64,000 bases of DNA, from NCBI GenBank assembly GCA_963855995.1, contig OY979716.1, forward strand, positions 19,649,040 to 19,713,039, given 5' to 3'. A program made the translations under genes and the position numbers. Numbering within the stretch: position 1 is the first letter of the stretch; each line of letters opens with the position of its first letter. This DNA is from Muricea muricata. Lineage: Eukaryota > Cnidaria > Anthozoa > Malacalcyonacea > Plexauridae. Positions 20,400-59,684 of the stretch are shown in pieces. The notes beneath the pieces were generated by a model. The model was not told the DNA's origin. It ran no database searches and worked only from the letters and a program-made list of their open reading frames with translations.

Positions 20400-20602
20400 C
20401 AGTGGCGGATCTAGCGTAAGTTATAATAAATTACCACAGCTCATTCTAGGATATATTTACATTTTAAAATACCTTCAAAGCAACTTCATTGGTTAGATTT
20501 TATTCTTTTGAAATTCATAACCTATGACATTGTTATAAAGTTATTTTGAGTTTAAAATTGAGCTGCTATAATTTAGTTTGAATTGCCCTGGATCCGCCAC
20601 TG
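20400..20602. mobile_element. hAT-like MITE, family 3
   Basis: 203 bp with ends CAGTGGCGGATCTAG and CTGGATCCGCCACTG. Flanks AAGACGAA and AAGACAAC are compatible with an 8-bp duplication that has lost one base. The uninterrupted sequence is present in the right arm near 22790. Confidence 0.88.
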
Positions 20603-21570
20603 AAGACAACAAGCCGAACGTACTTTTCGAGAGAAACATAATAAAACATTACTTTGATTTAGGATATAAATATATAACAATACTTAGTCAGTTGGAATGG
20701 CATCACAATATCCACATTTCCATGAGGACTTTGAAAAAGAGACTTAACGATCATGGATTAAAGAGAAAGAAAAATGAGGTTGATGTCGAACAGATTCGCA
20801 TATTTATACAAGAAATTATAGCTGGTCCTGGTTCGATGTGGGGTTACCGTAGCGTATGGCATGCACTAAGAATAAAATACAAGGTTCACGTTCCTTGCAA
20901 ATTAGTAGCTACCCTTTTAAGAGAGTTAGATCCTGAAGGTGTGAATCTGCAAAGACAACATAAATTTTTTCGACAGCGATTCGCATCGCATGGTCCAAAC
21001 TGTTGTTGGCATATAGATGGTAAGTTGACTCCCTCCACTCACTGTTTCTCGTGGACAAAAACGATATGGGAGGCTTCCCCAAAAAGCACCAGACATGTAA
21101 TTTTTTTTAAAAAAGCCGGTCACATCCGACCAGACCAATGCAAATGAACATAACAGAGCATGCGCCGGCCATGGGCTGACTATATGACTAGACATGCCCT
21201 ACATGCTAACATGCTGTAGCCTATATGCAGACCTAAATCGGAACATGCTGCAAATAACTACATTAATTTTGCAACATGAGAAGGCAGTCTGACCAGATCT
21301 AGTACAAATTTCGGAATAAAAGTTTGCCATCGCATTCGCAAAACAGGCCGGCGCACCCTAGAGCTATCTGCTTCGCCAATTGGCACGCGTGCCCAAGGGC
21401 GTAAGCAGATAGCTATCGTGTGCGGGCGATTTACAAACGACTTTGGTCATTCGTTCCACGTACGCCAAATATTTAACATGTTTAAAAATTTCTGCCTCGC
21501 GTGCCAAAATCTTTCCGTGAGCGGCGAACGAAAGCTATCTGCTTGCGGATTTGTCTGAACAGCGCATGCG

Positions 21571-21829
21571 TATTATTCGCCGCCGTCGACGCTTACGAGC
21601 ATTGAATCGTCAGACATGGACAAAGCGATGGCTTATGAGACAACAGGGTCAAGCTTGTGGCTATTTCCGTAAAGGCGCATTCCCTTTTCTCTCTGTTTCT
21701 GAATTCGGTCGAACTGACATCATATAGACATCTATACTCAAGCCAAAGGTCGACAAGTTTGTCTTCCAACATTGCCTCAGCCAGCAATTCATTTTGCGCC
21801 GCCATCTTGGATGTTTACTTCTACTATCA
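21571..21829 (-). pseudogene. MADF-domain first exon in the palindrome spacer
   Basis: Minus-strand ORF 21805-21593. The first ~50 residues (KLVDLWLEYRCLYD, then FRNREKRECAFTEIATSL) match the first half of a MADF (Myb/SANT-like) DNA-binding domain. The sequence around the ATG (CAAGATGGCGGC) looks like an invertebrate promoter/start region. The rest of the domain is missing. MADF proteins are frequent partners of PIF/Harbinger transposases, so this may be a captured Harbinger ORF2 piece; that is inference. Confidence 0.6.
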
Positions 21830-22380
21830 CGCATGCGCTGTTCAGACAAATCCGCAAGCAGATAGCTTTCGTTCGCCGCTCACGGGAAGATTTTGGCACG
21901 CGAGGCAGAAATTATTAAACATGTTAAATATTTGGCGTACGTGGAACGAATGACCAAAGTCGTTTGTAAATCGCCCGCACACGATAGCTATCTGCTTACG
22001 CCGTTGGGCACGCGTGCCAATTGGCGAAGCAGATAGCTCTAGTGTGCGCCGGCCTGTTTTGCGAATGCGATGGCAAACTTTTATTCCGAAATTTGTACTA
22101 GATCTGGTCAGACTGCCTTCTCATGTTGCAAAATTAATGTAGTTATTTGCAGCATGTTCCGATTTAGGTCTGCATATAGGCTACAGCATGTTAGCATGTA
22201 GGACATGTCTAGTCATATAGTCAGCCCCTGGCCGGCGCATGCTCTGTTATGTTCATTTGCATTGGACTGGTCGGATGTGACCGGCTTTTTTAAAAAAAAT
22301 TACATGTCTGGTGCTTTTTGGGGAAGCCTCCCATATCGTTTTTGTCCACGAGAAACAGTGAGTGGAGGGAGGCCACTTAC

Positions 22381-22810
22381 CATCTATATGCCAACAATAG
22401 TTTGGACCATGCGATACGTATCGCCGTCGAGAAAATTTATGTTGTCTTCGCAGATTCACGCCTTCAGGATCTAACTCTCTTAAAAGGGTAGCTACTAGTT
22501 TGCAAGGAACGTGAACCTTGTATTTTATTCTTAGTGCATGCCATACGCTACGGTAACCCACATCGAACCAGGACCAGCTATAATTTCTTTCATAAATATG
22601 CGAATCTGCTCGACATCAACCTCATTTTTCTTTCTCTTTAATCCATAATCGTTAAGTCTCCTTTTCAAAGTCCTCATGGACATGTGGATATTGTGATGCC
22701 GTTCCAACTGACTAAGTATTGTTATATATTTATATCCTAAATCAAAGTAATGTTTTATTATGTTTCTCTCGGAAAGTACGTTCAGCTTGTTCGTCTTCGC
22801 TGGACGCCAT
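22381..22810 (-). pseudogene. Integrase 5' exon, palindrome right arm
   Basis: Counterpart of the left-arm exon without MITEs. ATG 22810-22808, body with RNIIKHYFDLGYKY, RLNDYGLKRKKNEVDVEQ and NYCWHIDG, donor GTAAGT after 22381. One G is missing in the GATGTGGGGTTAC context (~22562), a frameshift not shared with the left arm. No downstream exon. Confidence 0.85.
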
Positions 22811-46505: not shown

Positions 46506-46813
46506 CAACCTTGTACCCAGGCTCTAATCTCTACGCTCTACGCTTGAGGAAGAGACCCTGGTGAATGCTGGTGACGTGGCACACAGATTTCGGGAGCCAT
46601 TCGGATATGCATTACTAGTTAGGGGAGGATTCGTAATTTTTTGGGTAAAAGTAACTCGTGTTACACTTTTCATCAAATGTGAGGCAAAAACTACATACAC
46701 CCACAATCCCTCACAAGCTTGCTCCCAAAATCTGGGTACTACGTGACCAGCATTCACCAGGGTATCTTTCTCAAGCGAAGAGCGTAGAGAAGAGAGCTTG
46801 GGCACGAGGTTGG
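46506..46813. mobile_element. MITE with the ends of the RecQ/DUF6589 element
   Basis: 308 bp. Ends CAACCTTGTACCCAGGCTC and the inverse of CCAACCTCGTGCCCAAGCTC. Flanking direct repeat GTCGAAAGC, 9 bp if the ends are CAACC/GGTTG (left copy 46497-46505, right copy 46813-46821 sharing the boundary G). Subterminal ACCCTGGTGAATGCTGG resembles the inner TIR of the 49.3-kb element, so it is probably a non-autonomous derivative. Confidence 0.85.
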
Positions 46814-49145: not shown

Positions 49146-49639
49146 CGATTCAGAAAAAAGTTCCTTGTTTTAAGAACGTACAACAGATAAAAAGTGACTT
49201 TAACTTGAACATACTGATCAAAATGTGGATTACACAGGGCACTGCACACTCTGGAAAGCATGAAAAATAATAATCTCGTGGCTCGTACTATACCAACCTC
49301 GTACCCAGGGTCTTTCTTTGGGAAAGACCCTGGTATCGGCTGGTCACGTGTCTCCCAGAATCTGGGAGATAACAAAAGAATCAAACTAGGGCAGGGTAGC
49401 TGAGTAGTTGCATTAGTATGCAAGGCTAATGCCTGGCCAGTTTTTACGCTGGGAGTGAAACTTTCTGTTCTGCTAGGGGTAGGAGTGAGAAATACATGCG
49501 ATTTGAGATCAAATATCAAACATGGAAATTTGATACAGGAAAAACTATGAAAGGCCATTGCAAAGCATATCAAAGTACATATCCAGACATGTGCTATTGT
49601 GCTTTGGTCTCAAAGTTCATTTATCCGGATGACTTCCAA

Positions 49640-52600
49640 GGAAACCCCGAAAAAAGTGTATCGATCTCCAAGTTCTTCAATAGATTCGTCTGCTTGCCGA
49701 CTTTGCAGAGCTGTTGGGGACACAAGTCACCGCAAGAATATATTTATTTAAGCCTTCAAATCGAGTTTTACTCAAGACTGCCGAACAAATTTGCGGGCAT
49801 TCTATCGTTTACGAGGCGAATTGGCCCCATCTGATTTGTAGACCATGCGAGCGCAGACTTAATAATACTAGGGATTTTCAAAAGGTAATTTTGGAAACCG
49901 AGCAGTCATTTCATCAAAGTCAGGCCCGGTTCAAGCGCTGTATCGAAGTTTCACCGTCAATTTCCCAGCCGCCAAGATCTCGTCTCTCTACATCTCCATG
50001 CAGCGCGTTCAGCGAGGCGTTTACCAAGAATATCGTTGTCGTTCGATTCTTGTCAAGAACCTAGACAGAATATCGAAGTGAGTGCTGCCTATTTGTCAGT
50101 TTAATATAAAGTAATGTATATTAAATTGTGATTTGATTTGTAAAGCAATATTTACAAGTTTTAATTAAAATGAACTGTTATTTATTGAGATATACGTACG
50201 AGTTCGCGCAAACAATGCTAAGTTGTTCACATATAAATTTGCATGCAAGAATAGGTAAATTTTCTCACAGTCAAAATGTCCACCCTTGTAAACGAAGTGA
50301 AAATGTTATACTTGTCCGCAACAAAGCTAAGCGGCCAAAGCCAGGTGTTCAAGGCCAGGTTAATTGTTATATATAGAAAGCAATCAACAAGAGCTAAATA
50401 ATTTGAGTTTTCAACTTAGGCTTTTTAGCCTTGACCAGGACTCAAGGGCATTTTTAACTCCTTACCAGAAATTAGTAAAATTACCTCATACAAGAACCTA
50501 AAATTAATCAAAAGACCATTGCTTTATATGTTGTCTTTATATCTGCCTTAGAATGTAAATCCTAAGCAAGATGATCAGAGTTCCAAATCACAACTCAGCA
50601 TACTGCTCGAAGAAGCCAACAAAGAGTTGGTGAATGTTTGCAGAAGAGACAACCATCTGTATTAAGAGATAGAACCTGTGGTGGTTTATCCCAGGAGACG
50701 TGGATGATTGAAATTGTAAATGAGCTTTCAACTAAATGCCCCACTGTTTCAAAAATACTTTCAAGTTTGTTCGATTGCTCCATGATAAACCCTGAAAATA
50801 AGCTGCCACCAATTTGCTTGATTTATAGCATAATCATGTTTATGAGATGTCATGAACTGAGCAGGGTACAAAGAATTAATACTGTTCTCTTGACTGAAGG
50901 AAAAGCATCAAGTAATGTAAGTAAAAAATCAATTAGTACAAAAGATTAAAATATTATATCATTGATAAAACTATAAAAGTGATAGAATAATCTGGCAACA
51001 GGTACAGTATCTATTACCAAAAAATTTCACCATGGAAGACCTTTGTAATGAAGATTAGTTTCATGTTATCTGATACCAGATTTCTTCACTTGTTTAAATT
51101 CTCTTGTCACATGGAGCACCAGACCCCTAGAAACTAATTGGTGAAAGGGCACATAGTGATAACAATGTCTTAACATAATGTTGACGTCTATGTTGTAGAG
51201 TAATTTTCCAGTATCTCTTTAATCCTTATTTATCTCATTTAAGTTCTTGTCAATATTAAGCCAAATGAATTAATGTAATTTCAGCTTTTAATCAAACTTT
51301 TAACTGTTAGCTGAACAACTTTCAAATTATATTTCAATTAAATTGATCCTTTGATTAAACACAACTAAATTAAAACATCCTTCCTACCATAATTTTTGCA
51401 CCTCAGCACAGTATAAGGAATAAACAGCAGGACAACTCAGCATTGCGACAAGTCCCCTATTTTTATGCAATTTACTGGCCAGAATAATGGCGGAACAGCC
51501 AGTTCAGCGCTTCATATAAACATGCGTAATGACATGGGCGAGGACACAAAGTTCAAACATTCCATACCCGAGTTACCCTTCTGTTTATTTCTATCCTGTG
51601 CACCTCAGTTTGAAATTCATGTTATAGCTTTGGCTTTTTATTTAAGAGAAGACAACCTATTCAACTCTATAATTGTGCTACCACAAGGTACTGTACGATA
51701 TATTCAAAAAGTGATTAATACTTTCCTTATTTATAGTTGTTTGAGCGACTAAACAAGTATGGGTTCTGTCTGAGCATGTCTAAAAAGTATGTAGTCCTCG
51801 ATGACATTGGCAAACACTTTTTGGATCATGCTGTAGAATTGGCGAAGTCTGGAAGGAAGTTTGTCTTTGTTGTCGACAACATAGATTGGATGGAGAAGGT
51901 GCATGATATGCGAGAAGTTCACCAAAACAAGAGTATGCATGCAGTTGCAACTAGCATGGTGTTCACCAGAGTTTCAAGTGACCATCTACCAGATGATGGC
52001 CCTCAGAAAGATATACGGACTTGTAACTTTCGTGAACTTGTCACCATAAAAGATGAAGAATTGAAAGAGATTCAAAATCGGTACAAGATATTAGTTGCAA
52101 GAATCCTAGTTGAGAAGTTTCCAAAGTTTAAACATCTTAAGACCTATCTATCTAAAGAACTTCCCCTTCCTCATGTCAATTCTGAGACAGCATCTTGTAA
52201 ATCAGAGGTTATCACCATGCCAGTATTGATGAAGGACGAGAAGAAATACAGTGATTGTGTCGATGTGTTAGACCAGTTAGAAGAATGGACTCACCTCATA
52301 TATAAGGCAAGCGGTATGTGCAAAGATCAGCCAGACCAACCCCCTACTTTCCCACCATTGGTAGAAGTTCCAACACAGCCAGATCAACCTAGATCCCATA
52401 TCCCACCTAAAACAGCAAATTTTGATCCACTTCAAGGAGTGAAGATTCCTTGTTTTGGTGATGAATTAACGAGAGTAAGATTTGCTGGTGCACGTGATCT
52501 TCGTTCTGGTTGCCATACAGCAAAGCGGCGTCTTGACCACCTATATCCATATCGTATTGTTGGATGGCATACAAAGAGGAGTTTTCTGAAGGTACATATA

Positions 52601-54117
52601 AGCTTAAAATTTTCATCGGTTAGCATAGCCAGTAGAATCGTGGAAGTGCCAATACAGTAATTGATTTTTTCCTATCTGATTTAGACTGTTTTCTTATGAT
52701 ATACTGTAGTAAGTTGAAAATGTCAGCTAGTTATTTTGGAATACAATTTATGATTGGCCCATTGAGAGGCTATGCACTCAACTTTCTTACTTAATGTTGT
52801 CTAATGCCATGCCACTATCGCTTGTTACTATGGTATTACATTAGCTTGTTACTATGGTATTTCATGTTTTCAAGGGATAGATATTTAAACTACCTTCACA
52901 TTGTTTAGAAGTCTCCAATGGATGAGTTAAAGACAATGTAAAATCTGTAATGTAAACAAATGCTTTGTTTACATTTCAAATTTTGAAAATATACTTAATA
53001 TCTAATACTACTGAGTGCATTATCATGAAGTTAATTAGCAAATTGCAATTTCTTTATTTCTTTATAGTCAGTCTTTAAAAGGCTGTACAAAAATTCTGGA
53101 AGAGAAAATGGTACATTACGATACTTCCGAGAGCTGCTCAACAGAAGAAATGTGACGGTTGATGTCAAGCACTACGAAGACTGCGAGCAGCTCTTCATGA
53201 GTGTTGGTCACTCTTACCTAATTGAAGCTCTGCTTGAGTTTTTTAAGATGGAAGATGTCAGCAAGTCGCCAAAAGAAAATAGTCGTTTTCTTTTCATTGA
53301 TGGAAATGATGAAGAAAAAAAGGCCCAAATACTAGCAGTTTTGGACAAGTTTGTCTCACAATACATCTGTTCTACATCAGAGGGAGACAGCATGGAATCA
53401 TCAGATGATGACACCACAGATGGTGTCTTCAACTATGCCCTGAACCTCCTGAAGTCCTATTTCATCCTTCTGGATTGCAAGGATGCTGTAGCATCTGGAA
53501 ATGGGGAGCATTTAGCACTAATCCAGAAACAGATGTTATTTTACTTCTCATCTGTTTCTGGATTTAATTCGTATGCTATTGAGATGCTTATCTCTATAGT
53601 GCAGAATGAAGTGTTGCTCTCACCCAAGGAAGCACATCAATGCAAGTGGGCAGCATTGGCTAATTGGAGAGGAGGAAAGGACAAAAACATTGAGATTGAC
53701 TTACTCCAAGAAAATCGAAATGCTGATCTCAAAGGACTTATTCGTTTGATGGGTGCCAATAAGACGGGGAAGGCAATTAGAAGAATGAGCAAGGCAGCTG
53801 GTGGTGTTCGTAAGATTGTGGATGTTTTTGAAGAACAAGCAGTAATCAAATCCAAGTCATCAGCTCACTCTCATAGATCTTCTTCTCAAGATGAAAAGAA
53901 AATTTCAAGCGACCTGCACAAGTTGAAGCCCTTCACTCCTGTGATTGGACGATCCCACAATTCATTTGTAGGAATTGCATGTGATCCATTGGAGAATTTA
54001 AATGAGGAATTGTTTTCTGAATGGCTTGAAAGGCATCAAAATAACATTTCTTTGCACTTTCCAACACTTGATGACATGCCTGGAAGTGAACCTGTTGAGG
54101 GTGACAATGTGTTGTGA
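49640..54117 (+). pseudogene. DUF6589-type putative transposase, four exons
   Basis: Exon A (to 50077) has a Cys-pair zinc module (ACRLC, then ICRPCERRL) with frameshifts at ~49710 and ~50025. Exon B 50552-50916 has one frameshift near 50640, then RQPSVLRDRTCGGLSQETW. Exon C 51737-52591 is intact: VFVVDNIDWMEKVHDMRE, KSMHAVATSMVFTRVSS and a Pro-rich linker. Exon D 53068-54117 is intact: YFRELLNRRNVTVDVKHYED, then WANWRGGKDKNIEIDLLQE-like GKDKNIEIDL and LGANKTGKAIRRM-like GANKTGKAIRRM blocks typical of DUF6589. B-C and C-D junctions are clean GT/AG and preserve frame. The Asp in VVDNIDW (codon at 51875) is the candidate first catalytic Asp. About 900 residues if repaired; the C-terminal two exons are unbroken. 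It converges with the helicase gene. Role as transposase is inferred. Confidence 0.78.
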
Positions 54118-55140
54118 CAATATTTTAGCAACTTAATATCTTCATGTTACACATGCAACCTGCAAAACAAATCTACTGCTAAGATATATTTATTAGTAAA
54201 GAATGTTTGATTAGATATGTCCCAAATATAATTACATTGCTAGTTGTAAGAAAAATTGCATTATGTAACATGGTCTGTGGTATTTCATGAGATTTAACTG
54301 ACCACTCAATTGACATTTAAAAGAGCACTAAATTTGCACAATGTACCTACTTGTATATTCATGTCAATCCATGTCGTGGCTGTTTTCTCAATCTTACTAC
54401 TCACCACATAATGTTTATTATATTTTCACCCATGGCTTGTTTCCATGTTTAATAAAGCTTTTGCAGTCTGTCAGGTATGCTATTTGAAAAATACTTTGAA
54501 TATCTTTGCCATTTAAAGCAAAGCCCTTGTTGGAAAGTAAAAACCAGGGCCTTTGCTCAAAACATCAAAGATACTCCGACTTGTATTTTTCAGGTAGAAG
54601 AACACCTAACCACCACAGAAGCTTTAGTACTCTCTACCTACACAGGTACACACAGACCAGGCTTAATACACACTTTATTACTGTTCCCTAGTAGTTACCA
54701 TTTGGCACTGATTAAAGAAATACTATAAATGTATGAATTAGAAATTAATAGCGTAGTACATCTAATTAAATTATAGAAATTATGTTTTGGATAATAATGA
54801 TGATAATGTTTTTGGTACATCAAAATGTTCATGCTAATAAATGTTTGACCACTTTGACATTTTAGAAATGCATGTGAACAAACAGTTTAACATGCAATAT
54901 GTTTATCATCAATGAAGATTTGCTACAAACATGCCATGCCCTGAAACTCTGTTGCTCAAGCTTTAATATCCTAGTTTTATTTCTGAGCATTTAACCTCTT
55001 TAAATGTGTGTAGCATATCTATTATCACTTAATAGACTTGAAAGCAAAGAGTGGCATATTTACACTCTTTACCACCAATACATGACAGCCCAATATAAAG
55101 TTTACATGCAATTATTCTATTTTAAAGTTCTGTTCAAAAG
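54118..55140. other. Intergenic middle of the element
   Basis: Between the two convergent 3' ends. AT-rich, AATAAA at ~54450; no supported gene. Confidence 0.55.
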
Positions 55141-56858
55141 TCATGTTACGTGGTGGGTGCAACTTTGGCAATCACAATTTAACTGTCAAACACCACAGCA
55201 AAGGTGTTTAGGATTAGCTACCTTGATATGCTTTTGGTCAGTATCTAGTGAAGTCAGCAATATACTTCTAAGGCACTCAAACTGGCTTCGACAAAATGTC
55301 CTGACTGCTTCTTGCATACCCATTTTGTTTTTTGCAATGTCACGGTTATTGTAGTGCAACACTGCCGTTGCTGGTTGTCCATCCCTTCCAGCTCTGCCAG
55401 TTTCCTGAAAGTATGCCTGGATGGTATATGGTGGAGTGATATGAACAACACTCCGGATGCCTTTAATATCAACCCCCATTCCCAGGGCTACTGTGGCAAA
55501 TACAACCCTTATAGTACTTTTTGAAGAGCACAGCTGTTTCAGGATTTCATCTTTCATTTCTTGTGTTTGGGGTGAATGGAACTGAGCAAATAGCCTGTTC
55601 TCAGGTGCTGGCATTGATCCTGCTGGGAAGTATTGACTGCTCCCCAAAACTGACTCAAATATCTTGTAAGCAAACCCACACCATTTTAAAGGAATGTAGA
55701 TAATTGTTAATGGATAGTTTGCCTGTTCCTTCAATAAATCTTGAGCAATGGGAGAAAGAATTCTGACAATGGACTCGACATCTGGTTCACCTCGAAAATG
55801 TTTTGTATACATAATATTTGTTCGGTCTGGATTGCCAACAACTTCTGCACATGTCTTTAAACCCAATGACTTTTTTACAGATTCTCTGTCATCTTTACTT
55901 GCTGTGGCAGTAATGGCTACTACTGGAACACTCAAAAATGTTGCACACAAAACTGCCAAGTTGCCATAGTCTACTCTGAACTCTTTTCCCCTGAAATATT
56001 ACAGTAAAATTGACGTATTTTAGTTTTGCACTTTTTAAATACACAAGTAGCACAACACTATTGTTTCTGGATGGTTAGGCACTGAACAAGGTTCCAATAA
56101 AACCAAACAAACCAAAAATACAAATGGCAATAAATTATTGTCTTCTAATAAGATTTTATGGTAAAAATTGATATACTTATATACAAATACGACTATTCAA
56201 AGGTAAGCCAGGGAATTAATCGAATTTTTACTAAATATGGTAATTGTCTGGAAAGTGGAAATATATAGTATCATTAAACTTACCACTCTAAAATACAATG
56301 GGCTTCGTCTACTACAATCGCACAGACGTTCTCCTGGTAAGGTTTACTCTGCATCAGCTTCCTCCCATAAGCACATGACACAAGCGCTTCAGGGTGTGCG
56401 AACACAATGTTATAGTGTCCGATTTCAAGCTTGGCTTTGTCGCTAAGATGAAAGTCACAGACAACAGCTTCTAATTCTGGGTCGTTTTCCTCTTCCTCGA
56501 CTTCTGACGACCTTACGTCGAGAACAGTTGCCCGAATTCCACTTGAATCTAACCGTGAGATCTGGTTTGTCATCAGCGCGTTTAAAGGTGATACAACCAC
56601 GATAATTGATGATATGTTCACCTGTTCTTTCCGTTTCGGAACACCATGCTTCTTCGCATACAACAGGGCAGGAAGCAAGTAAAAAATCAGCGATTTACCG
56701 TATCCAGTAGGTAGGACGACCAGAATATCCAAATTTAGAAAAATCTGTTCTAGACAAATTACCTGCTTAGGCTTTAAAACAACATCACAATACAAGCTAT
56801 TTAATATTGCGAACTCCAAGCACGAAAGGAATTGCCAGCACTTCGAGTTTTTCAACAT
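55141..56858 (-). CDS. RecQ-family DNA helicase (transposon-encoded)
   Basis: Exon 1 56858-56284 (the frame is open from 56897, but MLKNSKC is the likelier start) and exon 2 55990-55186; the splice restores EWGKEFRVDYG. Motifs: Q/0-like KPKQVICLEQIF, Walker A LPTGYGKS, Ia VVVSPLNALM, DEAH box VVDEAHCILEW, III ITATAS, V FATVALGMGVD, VI QETGRAGRDG. About 459 residues to a TGA at 55186-55188. Readthrough gives QLNCDCQSC, so the TGA may have replaced a Cys codon of the RecQ zinc module (HLCCGV before it) and removed its last Cys residues; that extended frame stops at 55141. No RQC winged helix or HRDC domain is visible. Its start sits ~90 bp inside the right TIR, so the TIR probably supplies the promoter. 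Helicase core intact by eye. Confidence 0.88.
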
Positions 56859-57002
56859 TGCGACTGACGGAAAACCTGCGAGCGGGCCGAATGACATAAA
56901 TGTAAATTCCCCCGCCCCCGCACGGGAGAAGAATTTTCATGCTATCACGTGACCAGCCGATACCAGGGTCTTTCCCAAAGAAAGACCCTGGGTACAAGGT
57001 TA

Positions 57003-59684
57003 GTACCACTGAGCTTTATTACATCTGGAGAAAGCATCGCGCCGCCATCTTTGAAGCCATTTTAATGGCGGCAATTTGCAAAATTGGTTCCCGATTGGTT
57101 CCCGGCTACAGGTAGCTACCACTGACCCAAAACGCGATGCTATACGTCCGGCAAAGCTCTTCGCCCCCCTGGTTTTTAACAAAAAATTGTTTACGAGATA
57201 CCGAGAAAAAGGAAATAATCTTAAGATATTTTGATTTCTTTGAATGTATTTTTATACTACATTTGCTTAACGGTGAAAAAAGGTGTTTGCCTTACTTGTC
57301 GGAGCAAGAATCTGCTATAAATGCAGGGGAATTCCTCTTTCAGGTATGTTTCACAACATATACTTTGTATTTTGCGTACGATATTACAGACACGGCAACA
57401 CGCTTCGAGGTTTGTCTTGTTTGATAATAAAGTGTTTTTAGATCACACAAACCGTTAGATCTTATATACAAACGGTTAAAGGTTATTGACATAGTTTTTC
57501 TTCTTCTGAGCATTGTATTTTTATTGCTAGCTTCGTTTTGTTTTGCTGAAGAGTGAAGGCTGTTGCATTACTTGCATATGTTCGCCTAACTTTCCAGGAC
57601 TCAGCAGCATCTTTATGCAACTCTTTTCGGCTGCTTATGTAGAAAGTAGATACTACCAGAATATTTAAACAAAGTACACACTCGCTTTGTTTTAGGTTTG
57701 TACCTGCAAGTATATGTGCAAATCCAATACCTAAGAAAAAAGTCAGCTACAGAGAAGGGAAAATATCCAGGACATGGCATATAAGAGGTTTTGTTTTCCA
57801 AATGCACCAAGGTAACTCACACTTTATATTAACAATCAGAAGAAATTTAGAAGTGACAGGGTCCAGAAAACTGCATGTTTTCATTGTCAAGTTTTGTATT
57901 AGCCATTGATGCCTTTTAAAGATACAATAGTTGATTGCATGTGCACAGAAAATTAGACATTTCAAGACCAAATACAGGGGGCCAGTATTGAATGGGGTCA
58001 CTCTGTAAAAATAAAATTGTGTAATTATAATTGTAAATATCATTGACTTATCAATATTTAAGAGAGTCCTTGATAGTTCCACCCTTATAGAATAAAGGCA
58101 TTTGCTTTTCTTTGTGTATCCTTGTGTTGTAAAGGCAAAAATGTACTACAATATACTAATATACTTGTTAATGTTTTCTTATTTTGTAGGACCTATCTAC
58201 TGTAAGAACCTCACCTCAACATGGCATAAAGCATACATATGTAAATCAACAGAGACAGAAATTTTATCATGTCATATCTATGACATGATGAATGTTTTAA
58301 TAAAATGTCAAATTCTATATTGTACAGTAGTCACTACTATTCTTAAAGTTACATTGTTAATGTTAAGCTAGTAATGATACATGTAAAAAGCCAAATTAAA
58401 GAAGTTCAAAATTAGTCCTGCATTAATGCTGTCTCCAATTTTCTTCATAAATGCTATCTTCAAGACACATTTTGCATGTATTTTTTGCATTCCCCTAGAA
58501 TACAAAAGGTAAGAGTCTGTACAAACCAGGTGTCAAATTTACAGTGTTCACTAGAAACAAAAACATAACATTGACAAGAAAGGATGTGAGATGATACACA
58601 TTGGCATCACCTAGGGGATGGTAGTTGGACATAGGATTCATTGAAATCAGTAGAAAATTGCATTAGGAAAATGATGACTTTGACTCCCCTTCCTTAAAAA
58701 GGCATAGGACCCACAAATCAAGATGAGATGTGTTTTTTTGCAGACATATGTGTCAATTTGTGCCAGAGTAGAAAAGATATGCACTTCTATATCTAAACTT
58801 CTATGTATTTTACTGTCTCATTGCATACAGGGTGGTTAGCTTTACAAACTGTGTGTCAATGTACCTGAATAAAAGAACTAATTTGGCAGAAATATGAGAT
58901 TTTTAGAGGGTCCTGAAAAGGGTAAACTGGGAGCTGGGAATTGCATATATTTTTGATGGGAAAATAAGAGTCCATGCACTGGGACTTCCCATAAACACTG
59001 GACACCGGGATTAGTAGCCCTTCAGGACCCTGTTTTTATTATTCAAAGATATAAAATATACCAAAAGGCAATTTCAACTTTCTACATCCAACTGATCCAA
59101 GTTATACATAACATAAATCTGTACATTCAATGTTAGACTGTAGAGTATATTCAGGCGTCAAGCTTACAAATTTGATATAGAACAACATTGAACATGAAAA
59201 TTGAAAAAATAAACTTGAAAGAAAGAAACTCTAACTTTCAAATACCTGTTATTAAAATACAAAACTTCAAATAGTTCAGGCTGGTGTTCCTCATCAAAAA
59301 TCTTGCAATTGTCGACATTTTCAAGACTTTATTAATTTTCCGTTCCTGTCCAAGGCCAAGTATACGATGAATAACTTGTACATCTTTGAATAAATCGTAA
59401 AAGTCCCAAAAAATTCATCAAAATCACTCTCATTGACAAAAAAACTCACTGCGAAAAAGATCAACATATCATCCAGGGGGGTGTGAAAACAGCCGCGGGC
59501 TCAAAATTGAGCCTGGCTAGCGGTTACTACCTTTAGCCGTTGCCATAGATATGGCGTCAAATGGCGTGAGATGGCGTCAAATGGCGTGATGATTCGTCAG
59601 AAATCGGCCATGTTTTTGGCTTCAACTGTTTGACTGAGCAGAGATTGGCGTGCTATCTCCAGATGTAATAGAACTCAATGGTTG
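57003..59684. mobile_element. Inverted-repeat unit of family R
   Basis: Left arm GTACCACTGAGCTTTATTAC and ATCTGGAGAAAGCA (57003-57040), with weaker matches to ~57120, is inverted at 59580-59684 (ATCTCCAGATGTAATAGAAC, TCAATGGTTG). The interior is mostly non-coding. An open segment 57137-57345 ends at a GTATGT donor and could be a first exon, but I cannot place it. It may be an independent element, or the distal part of the helicase element. Confidence 0.55.

Follow-up and report, generated by a model that had tools for sequence, protein, structure and literature searches.

DNA transposons that carry a second gene beside that of the transposase are the closest described systems to the element reported here. 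The two genes of RAG-like transposons lie between terminal inverted repeats (TIRs). AcademH elements reportedly occur in animals and fungi, going by the title of a 2020 article by Kojima (Mob DNA 11:15). PMC10045372 describes AcademH as the helicase-bearing lineage of Academ, with target duplications of 9 or 10 bp, and, according to PMC9587614, a RecQ helicase is encoded by KolobokH and by Kolobok-1_CCri, in the latter on the complementary strand. Here we describe a locus of Muricea muricata, within a stretch of 64,000 nucleotides that we call the window, which is very probably a dead copy of a two-gene transposon working as, and most likely belonging to, AcademH, with a zf-AD and DUF6589 protein as its DDE transposase and a RecQ helicase as its standing second component.

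The element of the window and its siblings

The element (49294..57002, 7709 bp) is bounded by 57-bp TIRs, the left one at 49294..49350 on the plus strand, beginning with CAACCTCGTACCCAGGGTC, and the right one at 56946..57002 on the minus strand. The two are identical at 55 of 57 positions, as the original prediction had stated, and the ends were also recovered as 60-bp arms of 97% identity. A zf-AD and DUF6589 gene on the plus strand and a RecQ gene on the minus strand lie tail to tail between them, and Pfam matches on opposite strands bear out the convergent pair that had been proposed. Each gene had been said to start just inside a TIR, which agrees with the start codons read from the sequence: RecQ begins with an ATG ~50 bp inward of the right TIR, and the presumed transposase with one ~280 bp inward of the left TIR. 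The splicing of both genes is inferred from the DNA and not from transcripts.

The presumed transposase gene comprises exon 1 (49630..50075, plus strand), which codes for the zf-AD zinc finger and contains two 4-bp insertions that break the frame, exon 2 (50563..50916), broken by a 1-bp deletion, and exons 3 (51737..52591) and 4 (53068..54117), which hold the N and C halves of DUF6589. The 3' border of exon 1 is approximate, its splice site having been placed by eye, and the borders of exon 2 are inferred as well. On the minus strand, the helicase gene comprises exon 1 (56285..56897, 3' border approximate), matching Pfam DEAD, and exon 2 (55186..55990), matching Helicase_C; the gene matches TIGR00614 (recQ_fam), with each exon singly falling below the curated cut-off. 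All RecQ motifs had been described as intact, and they are indeed present, but the stop comes 15 residues earlier than in the siblings and the last Cys cluster is lost.

Three siblings, 99.1-99.3% identical to the window copy, carry both genes, and sibling identities of 99.1-99.8% suggest that the family was recently active. Relative to these siblings the window transposase gene has three frame-shifting indels. The flanking 9-mers at the position of the target duplication (49285..49293 and 57003..57011, both given on the plus strand) match at 5/9 positions, for which chance alone gives p about 0.05. The window copy therefore looks dead, given the three indels, the early helicase stop and the poor duplication, the last of which also counts against our main reading.

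The 5/9 match could also be expected if two separate MITE insertions bracketed unrelated host genes, an explanation already raised by the original prediction, and the same ends are indeed found on small elements: a nonautonomous relative of 307 bp (46506..46812), with one mismatch to the terminal motif at each end and a 9/9 duplication, GTCGAAAGC, lies 2.5 kb from the window element. However, both genes are present in the three siblings, two of which (L021 and L022) have both ends complete and 9/9 duplications, the third (L029) having an incomplete right TIR, and across the genome 103 of 159 DUF6589 loci are paired with RecQ. We reject the bracketing explanation, whose probability we consider negligible, because full-length siblings show perfect duplications around the whole unit.

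Pairing of DUF6589 and RecQ across the genome

The terminal 19-mer occurs 674 times in the genome (329+345), while its reversed control gave 0+0. Among 26 end pairs that were not selected by their flanks, 19 have a 9/9 duplication and two a 10/10 duplication; the five imperfect ones match at 9/10 once, 8/9 three times and 7/9 once. TIR length is 57 bp in the window family and 98 bp in L096, and the same ends also bound shorter elements. Two sets of elements were considered and set aside. Some elements looked "giant", their TIRs being separated by 60 and 63 kb and flanked by perfect 9-bp duplications; in the parts that were read, they prove to be AcademH copies into which other sequence has inserted in nested fashion. 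The coral CMITEs, as described in PMC2872659, are piggyBac/TTAA elements and differ from those of the window family.

The duplications have no TTAA specificity and the termini are 5'-CA or 5'-TA. A KolobokH-like element, with a Kolobok transposase and RecQ, would account for the helicase, since KolobokH and Kolobok-1_CCri encode one (PMC9587614), but the 9-10 bp duplications and the termini exclude it, and we give this reading next to no credence.

In the genome of the window, RecQ lies within 5 kb of 103 of 159 DUF6589 loci, where ~0.8 would be expected by chance, and the orientation is tail to tail in 102 of these 103 pairs. The remaining 56 loci, at which RecQ was not found within 5 kb, count against our main reading, although some of them are fragments and the sensitivity of the RecQ search is limited. 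Counted from the helicase side, with the first query pair only, DUF6589 was matched within 5 kb of 75 of the 140 RecQ loci, and the 65 without an exon-4 match at that distance also count against it. Thus DUF6589 and RecQ are not mostly apart in this genome, as had been allowed for; DUF6589 is mostly found with RecQ. Distant DUF6589 genes at first appeared to stand without a helicase, as the RecQ of the window recovered a partner within 6 kb for 4 of 44, but when the query was a RecQ taken from one of these loci, 29 of the 44 had a partner within 5 kb and 15 did not, and L096 has a RecQ that the window query overlooked. This apparent absence is therefore largely a matter of query sensitivity.

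Ten of the 26 end pairs enclose DUF6589, and nine of these also enclose a RecQ match, while the tenth, L025, retains pieces of RecQ. The convergent arrangement persists where transposase identity has fallen as low as 34%, and is also present in a family with unrelated TIR sequence. Identities of transposase and RecQ vary together (Spearman 0.60, n=73; 0.53, n=69, once the window family is removed), a comparison of identities to the pair of the window rather than of trees. Both genes have a low pN, with silent sites saturated, and both are under purifying selection of comparable strength. DUF6589 and RecQ are one mobile unit, inherited as a pair and, where the ends were read, enclosed by matching TIRs and 9- or 10-bp duplications, as the original prediction had proposed.

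The prediction had left open whether the helicase was cargo or a transposition partner. A captured host gene carried passively, with no role in transposition, would fit the 56 DUF6589 loci without RecQ nearby, with the reservations given above on fragments and sensitivity. The nine end pairs that enclose both genes, the persistence of the pair across divergent families and the selection on RecQ argue against such a passenger, which we regard as unlikely. RecQ reads as a standing partner and not as cargo, because the two proteins have diverged in parallel and purifying selection continues to act on each. With ~100 paired loci, some of them very similar, the M. muricata genome is a place to ask why a transposon carries its own RecQ.

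The presumed transposase and the element ends

In Pfam, the 5' exon matches zf-AD (1.4e-7) and the two 3' exons match DUF6589 (2.1e-11 and 1.9e-23). The same scans returned no model of a known transposase, MULE included. An NCBIfam search with the transposase gave no match, the best E in a DUF6589 profile search of PDB was 0.18, which is not significant, Academ proteins or models did not turn up in any of these libraries, and a scan of viral contigs with exon 4 confirmed no relative. In the literature searched, the name DUF6589 was in no paper, and the sole match to PF20231 was an optics paper.

In RNase H-type transposases, one catalytic acidic residue sits on a strand, another just past a strand, and the third on a helix. 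Candidates in DUF6589 are the D of DNxD and the D of GDELT in exon 3 and the E of DLxxExxN in exon 4. In the alignment, the first D is conserved in 6/6 rows, the second in 5/5, and the E in 10 of the 11 rows that cover the C half, with A in L039 and a twelfth letter left out as a misplaced fragment. A structure model of low confidence (mean pLDDT 55.2, pTM 0.47; an earlier, poor model reached pLDDT 43.5) places the first D on a strand, the second right after a strand and the E on a helix; its low confidence, like the PDB result, weighs against the reading. DUF6589 is most likely a DDE transposase, judging from the conservation and spacing of these residues, and a domain of unknown function thereby gains a testable role in helicase-bearing elements.

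Another superfamily whose duplications measure 8-10 bp, such as MuDR, is also a conceivable home for the element, RecQ then being an independent addition. MuDR elements have a MULE-type transposase, likewise make ~9-bp duplications and sometimes have long TIRs, but the exons match DUF6589 and zf-AD and no MULE model, so that we consider this origin very improbable.

In the DDE transposase reading, the zinc finger would bind the element ends, and the D/D/E site would cut and join with a stagger of 9 bp, sometimes 10 bp. RecQ would regularly take part in that reaction as its other component, its simplest role being to unwind the ends or the product of strand transfer. An inverted repeat with 13-bp arms and a 3-nt loop, a predicted hairpin, lies inside the left TIR (49305..49333, plus strand) and again inside the right one (56963..56991, minus strand), and the folding z of the window TIR DNA is -4.2. 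Compared with shuffles, five of eight ends fold at z -1.9 or lower; L064 (z 0.19) has a mismatched stem, and the folded sub-ranges of L049 (z 0.92) and L051 (z -1.67) miss the proper stem and so are no test of it. The arms were compared in 66 of 74 ends, the other eight having been dropped because the CCAGG...CCTGG box was not found in them. This selection makes the five outer pairs constant. The left end of L070/L071, which was used, was paired with an inner CCTGG. As a tentative and rather doubtful proposal, the ends may be functional foldbacks, made of a 10-11 nt tip and an inverted repeat, with arms covarying between families and a loop of 3 to ~50 nt, and RecQ may melt or extrude the hairpins. 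This common architecture suggests a concrete, testable answer to why RecQ is carried. If the proposal is true, a DDE transposon would here recognise its DNA ends in folded form, a property otherwise associated with single-strand transposases of the IS200/IS605 type.

Comparison with known transposons

The window element is apparently of AcademH type, and most likely joins a lineage already described instead of founding one, an assignment that rests on duplication length, TIRs and helicase. It is filed there because 9- or 10-bp duplications are reported for AcademH, and that length (PMC10045372) backs the resemblance to Academ that the original prediction had noted. Like AcademH, it has a helicase gene beside the transposase in a DNA transposon, TIRs, and duplications of 9 or 10 bp, perfect at 21 of 26 end pairs and matching at 5/9 in the window copy. 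AcademX, a sister Academ lineage, also has an accessory enzyme, but a nuclease takes the place of the helicase and the duplications are of 3-4 bp (PMC10045372) instead of 9-10 bp. KolobokH and the red-algal Kolobok-1_CCri join a DDD/E transposase and RecQ in one element, on opposite strands in Kolobok-1_CCri, but differ in their TTAA duplications, 5'-RR termini and transposase of another superfamily (PMC9587614). RAG-like transposons share the two convergent genes, transposase and partner (PMC7204232), but their partner protein is unrelated to RecQ. Compared with these systems, the link to DUF6589, the ends built of a tip and an inverted repeat, and the head-to-head sister architecture are possibly new.

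The element in the window and its condition

The original prediction of a convergent DUF6589 and RecQ gene pair between terminal inverted repeats (TIRs) at window positions 49294-57002 was confirmed: the TIRs are identical at 55 of 57 positions (a separate determination gave 60-bp arms, 97%), and Pfam and NCBIfam place the domains on opposite strands. The + strand carries a zf-AD zinc finger in a 5' exon (1.4e-7) and DUF6589 in two 3' exons (2.1e-11 and 1.9e-23), and the order and frames of these exons suggest a single gene. The - strand codes for DEAD and Helicase_C domains, with the RecQ family as top NCBIfam match, although each exon alone scores under the curated cut-off. The zf-AD domain is known chiefly from arthropod C2H2 proteins; in the window (49630-50061) and at locus L022 (458-1000) it is the N-terminal domain of a cnidarian transposase.

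The window copy is damaged. Compared with three siblings (99.1-99.3% identity), its transposase has gained 4 bp at two places in exon 1 and lost 1 bp in exon 2, and its helicase stops 15 residues short of the siblings' end. The helicase had been described as having all motifs intact, which holds for the helicase motifs, but the early stop removes the last cysteine cluster. The 9-mers flanking the element agree at 5/9 positions (probability 0.05 by chance alone). Since the siblings are 99.5-99.8% identical to one another, the family seems to have moved recently.

Association of DUF6589 and RecQ in the genome

The 453-Mb genome of the window was searched with exon 4 of the transposase (127 matches, merged into 115 loci) and with Pfam (104 matches), which contributed 44 further DUF6589 loci, while two RecQ queries (the best 150 of 151 matches listed, and 91 matches) gave at least 196 merged loci. 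Both sets, at least 159 DUF6589 and at least 196 RecQ loci, are lower bounds because the search scores best candidates only. RecQ was present within 5 kb at 103 of the 159 DUF6589 loci found, against ~0.8 expected by chance, and tail to tail in 102 of them (the other pair, on C45, is head to head), which supports the proposal that the pair is one unit. With a 10-kb limit, 114 of the 159 had a RecQ, 107 of them convergent; 56 had none within 5 kb, both sets being lower bounds. From the RecQ side, among the matches listed for the first query pair only, DUF6589 lay within 5 kb at 75/140 loci, and at 38/49 of the most similar (≥60% identity) versus 1/18 of the least similar.

The two genes are inherited jointly and both are under selection. 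Identities of the DUF6589 and RecQ proteins to the window's pair are correlated (Spearman 0.60, 73 pairs; 0.53 for the 69 pairs left when the window family is removed), a comparison of identities rather than a tree test. From one family to another, replacements are few and silent sites are saturated in both genes (transposase exon 4, window and L025 copies: pS 0.75, pN 0.20; helicase exon 2, window and L024 copies: pS 0.80, pN 0.19).

Twenty-seven high-scoring RecQ matches have open frames of 356-675 aa, and 26 of them are >5 kb from every DUF6589 locus found. Two, C1:28167890 and C1:73295079, have identical scores, as though repeated, and the 27 are possibly borne by other mobile elements.

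Eight loci, with exon-4 matches of 38-42% identity, have their RecQ head to head at a distance of 5-11 kb. One of them, C25:108900-121000 (L042, L053 and L054; seven similar loci besides), combines a RecQ open frame of 587 residues with a divergent zf-AD/DUF6589 gene, whose zf-AD match is under the Pfam cut-off. Its ends show the window family's terminal motif and a 9/9 duplication (single copy read at both ends), and a second copy, on C3, has the same left end. These loci make up a sister lineage of the tail-to-tail elements.

Ends, target duplications and shorter relatives

Exact matches to the terminal 19-mer CAACCTCGTNCCCAGGNTC number 329 + 345 genome-wide, and its reversed control has none in the same genome. 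Among the 100 sites listed first, which all lie on contig C1, adjacent inward-facing ends within 30 kb formed 26 pairs, and the duplications read at all of them were 9/9 in 19, 10/10 in 2, and imperfect in five (9/10, 8/9, 8/9, 8/9 and 7/9). The unit is mobile as a whole, with a 9- or 10-bp stagger. Ten of the 26 pairs enclose DUF6589, nine of these RecQ too, and 16 match neither query. Of further pairs picked by TIR similarity, counting only those with a flank match of at least 5/9, 12/14 have 9/9 duplications; the exceptions are the window copy and C2:60750062, which matches only partially at its left end. Elements on C15, C5 and C25, as well as copies L096 and L097 (by eye), have 9/9 duplications. 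For 30 convergent gene pairs in the listed part of C1, the exact motif lies within 12 kb on both sides in 8 (mean of 0.03 under random placement), on one side in 5 and on neither in 17. The related copies L031/L040 and L036/L038, with ends 63 and 60 kb apart and perfect 9-bp duplications, were opened by nested insertions (inserts read in part).

Shorter elements use the same ends. A 307-bp nonautonomous relative at 46506-46812, 2.5 kb from the element, has the terminal motif and a 9/9 duplication, and elements of 320, 477-496, 659, 933 and ~1950 bp match neither gene query. A ~970-bp inverted repeat with 97% identity at window 20602-22798 is probably another recent element.

Despite the saturated silent sites, none of the four ends of L024 and L025 differs from the window's left TIR in any of the 57 bp, so the TIRs would be either strongly constrained or swapped between families. 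In each end a tip of ~11 nt precedes the inverted repeat CCAGGGTC...GACCCTGG or one of its variants, with the matched arms 3 to ~35 nt apart in ends where the CCAGG...CCTGG box was found. Inner arm positions tend to covary: positions 6-12 of 18 distinct arm pairs gave 97/126 Watson-Crick pairs, whereas 2000 re-pairings averaged 76.5 and never exceeded 91, with position 6 mismatched in 9/18 types. This test used 66/74 ends, the outer five positions are constant through how ends were picked, and related families among the 18 types are not independent. The L096 family has unrelated TIRs and the tip TAGACTTGC, yet its ends follow the same layout, arms of 14 bp around a ~50-nt loop. Single-strand folding relative to shuffles gave z -4.2 for the window TIR and -1.9 to -3.3 for four other ends; the L064 end folds no better than shuffles. 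Arms and folding are compatible with hairpin ends and with paired inverted binding sites alike.

Function and relation to known transposons

DUF6589 is very likely a DDE transposase. Across the rows aligned, the candidate catalytic columns hold D in 6/6, a second D in 5/5 and E in 10/11 (A in L039), in the contexts DNxD, GDxLT (GDYLS in L096) and DLxxExxN. A second, weak AlphaFold2 model (pLDDT 55.2) has the first D on a strand, the second just past a strand and the E on a long helix, and this placing of acidic residues is the DDE arrangement. A PDB profile search with DUF6589 returned nothing significant (best E 0.18), and the names DUF6589 and PF20231 appear in no relevant paper of the literature searched. 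The zf-AD and DUF6589 protein would bind the element ends and carry out DDE cleavage and strand transfer, in a family that has probably been active recently. RecQ may help by unwinding DNA and, more speculatively, could work on folded ends.

By the title of its description, AcademH is a lineage within Academ whose members carry a helicase, from animals and fungi. Target duplications, in the excerpt of PMC10045372, are 9 or 10 bp in AcademH and 3 or 4 in AcademX. KolobokH also carries RecQ, but the corresponding part of PMC9587614 gives it TTAA duplications, unlike the 9 or 10 bp found here. With both a helicase and duplications of AcademH length, the DUF6589/RecQ unit would thus belong with the already described AcademH.
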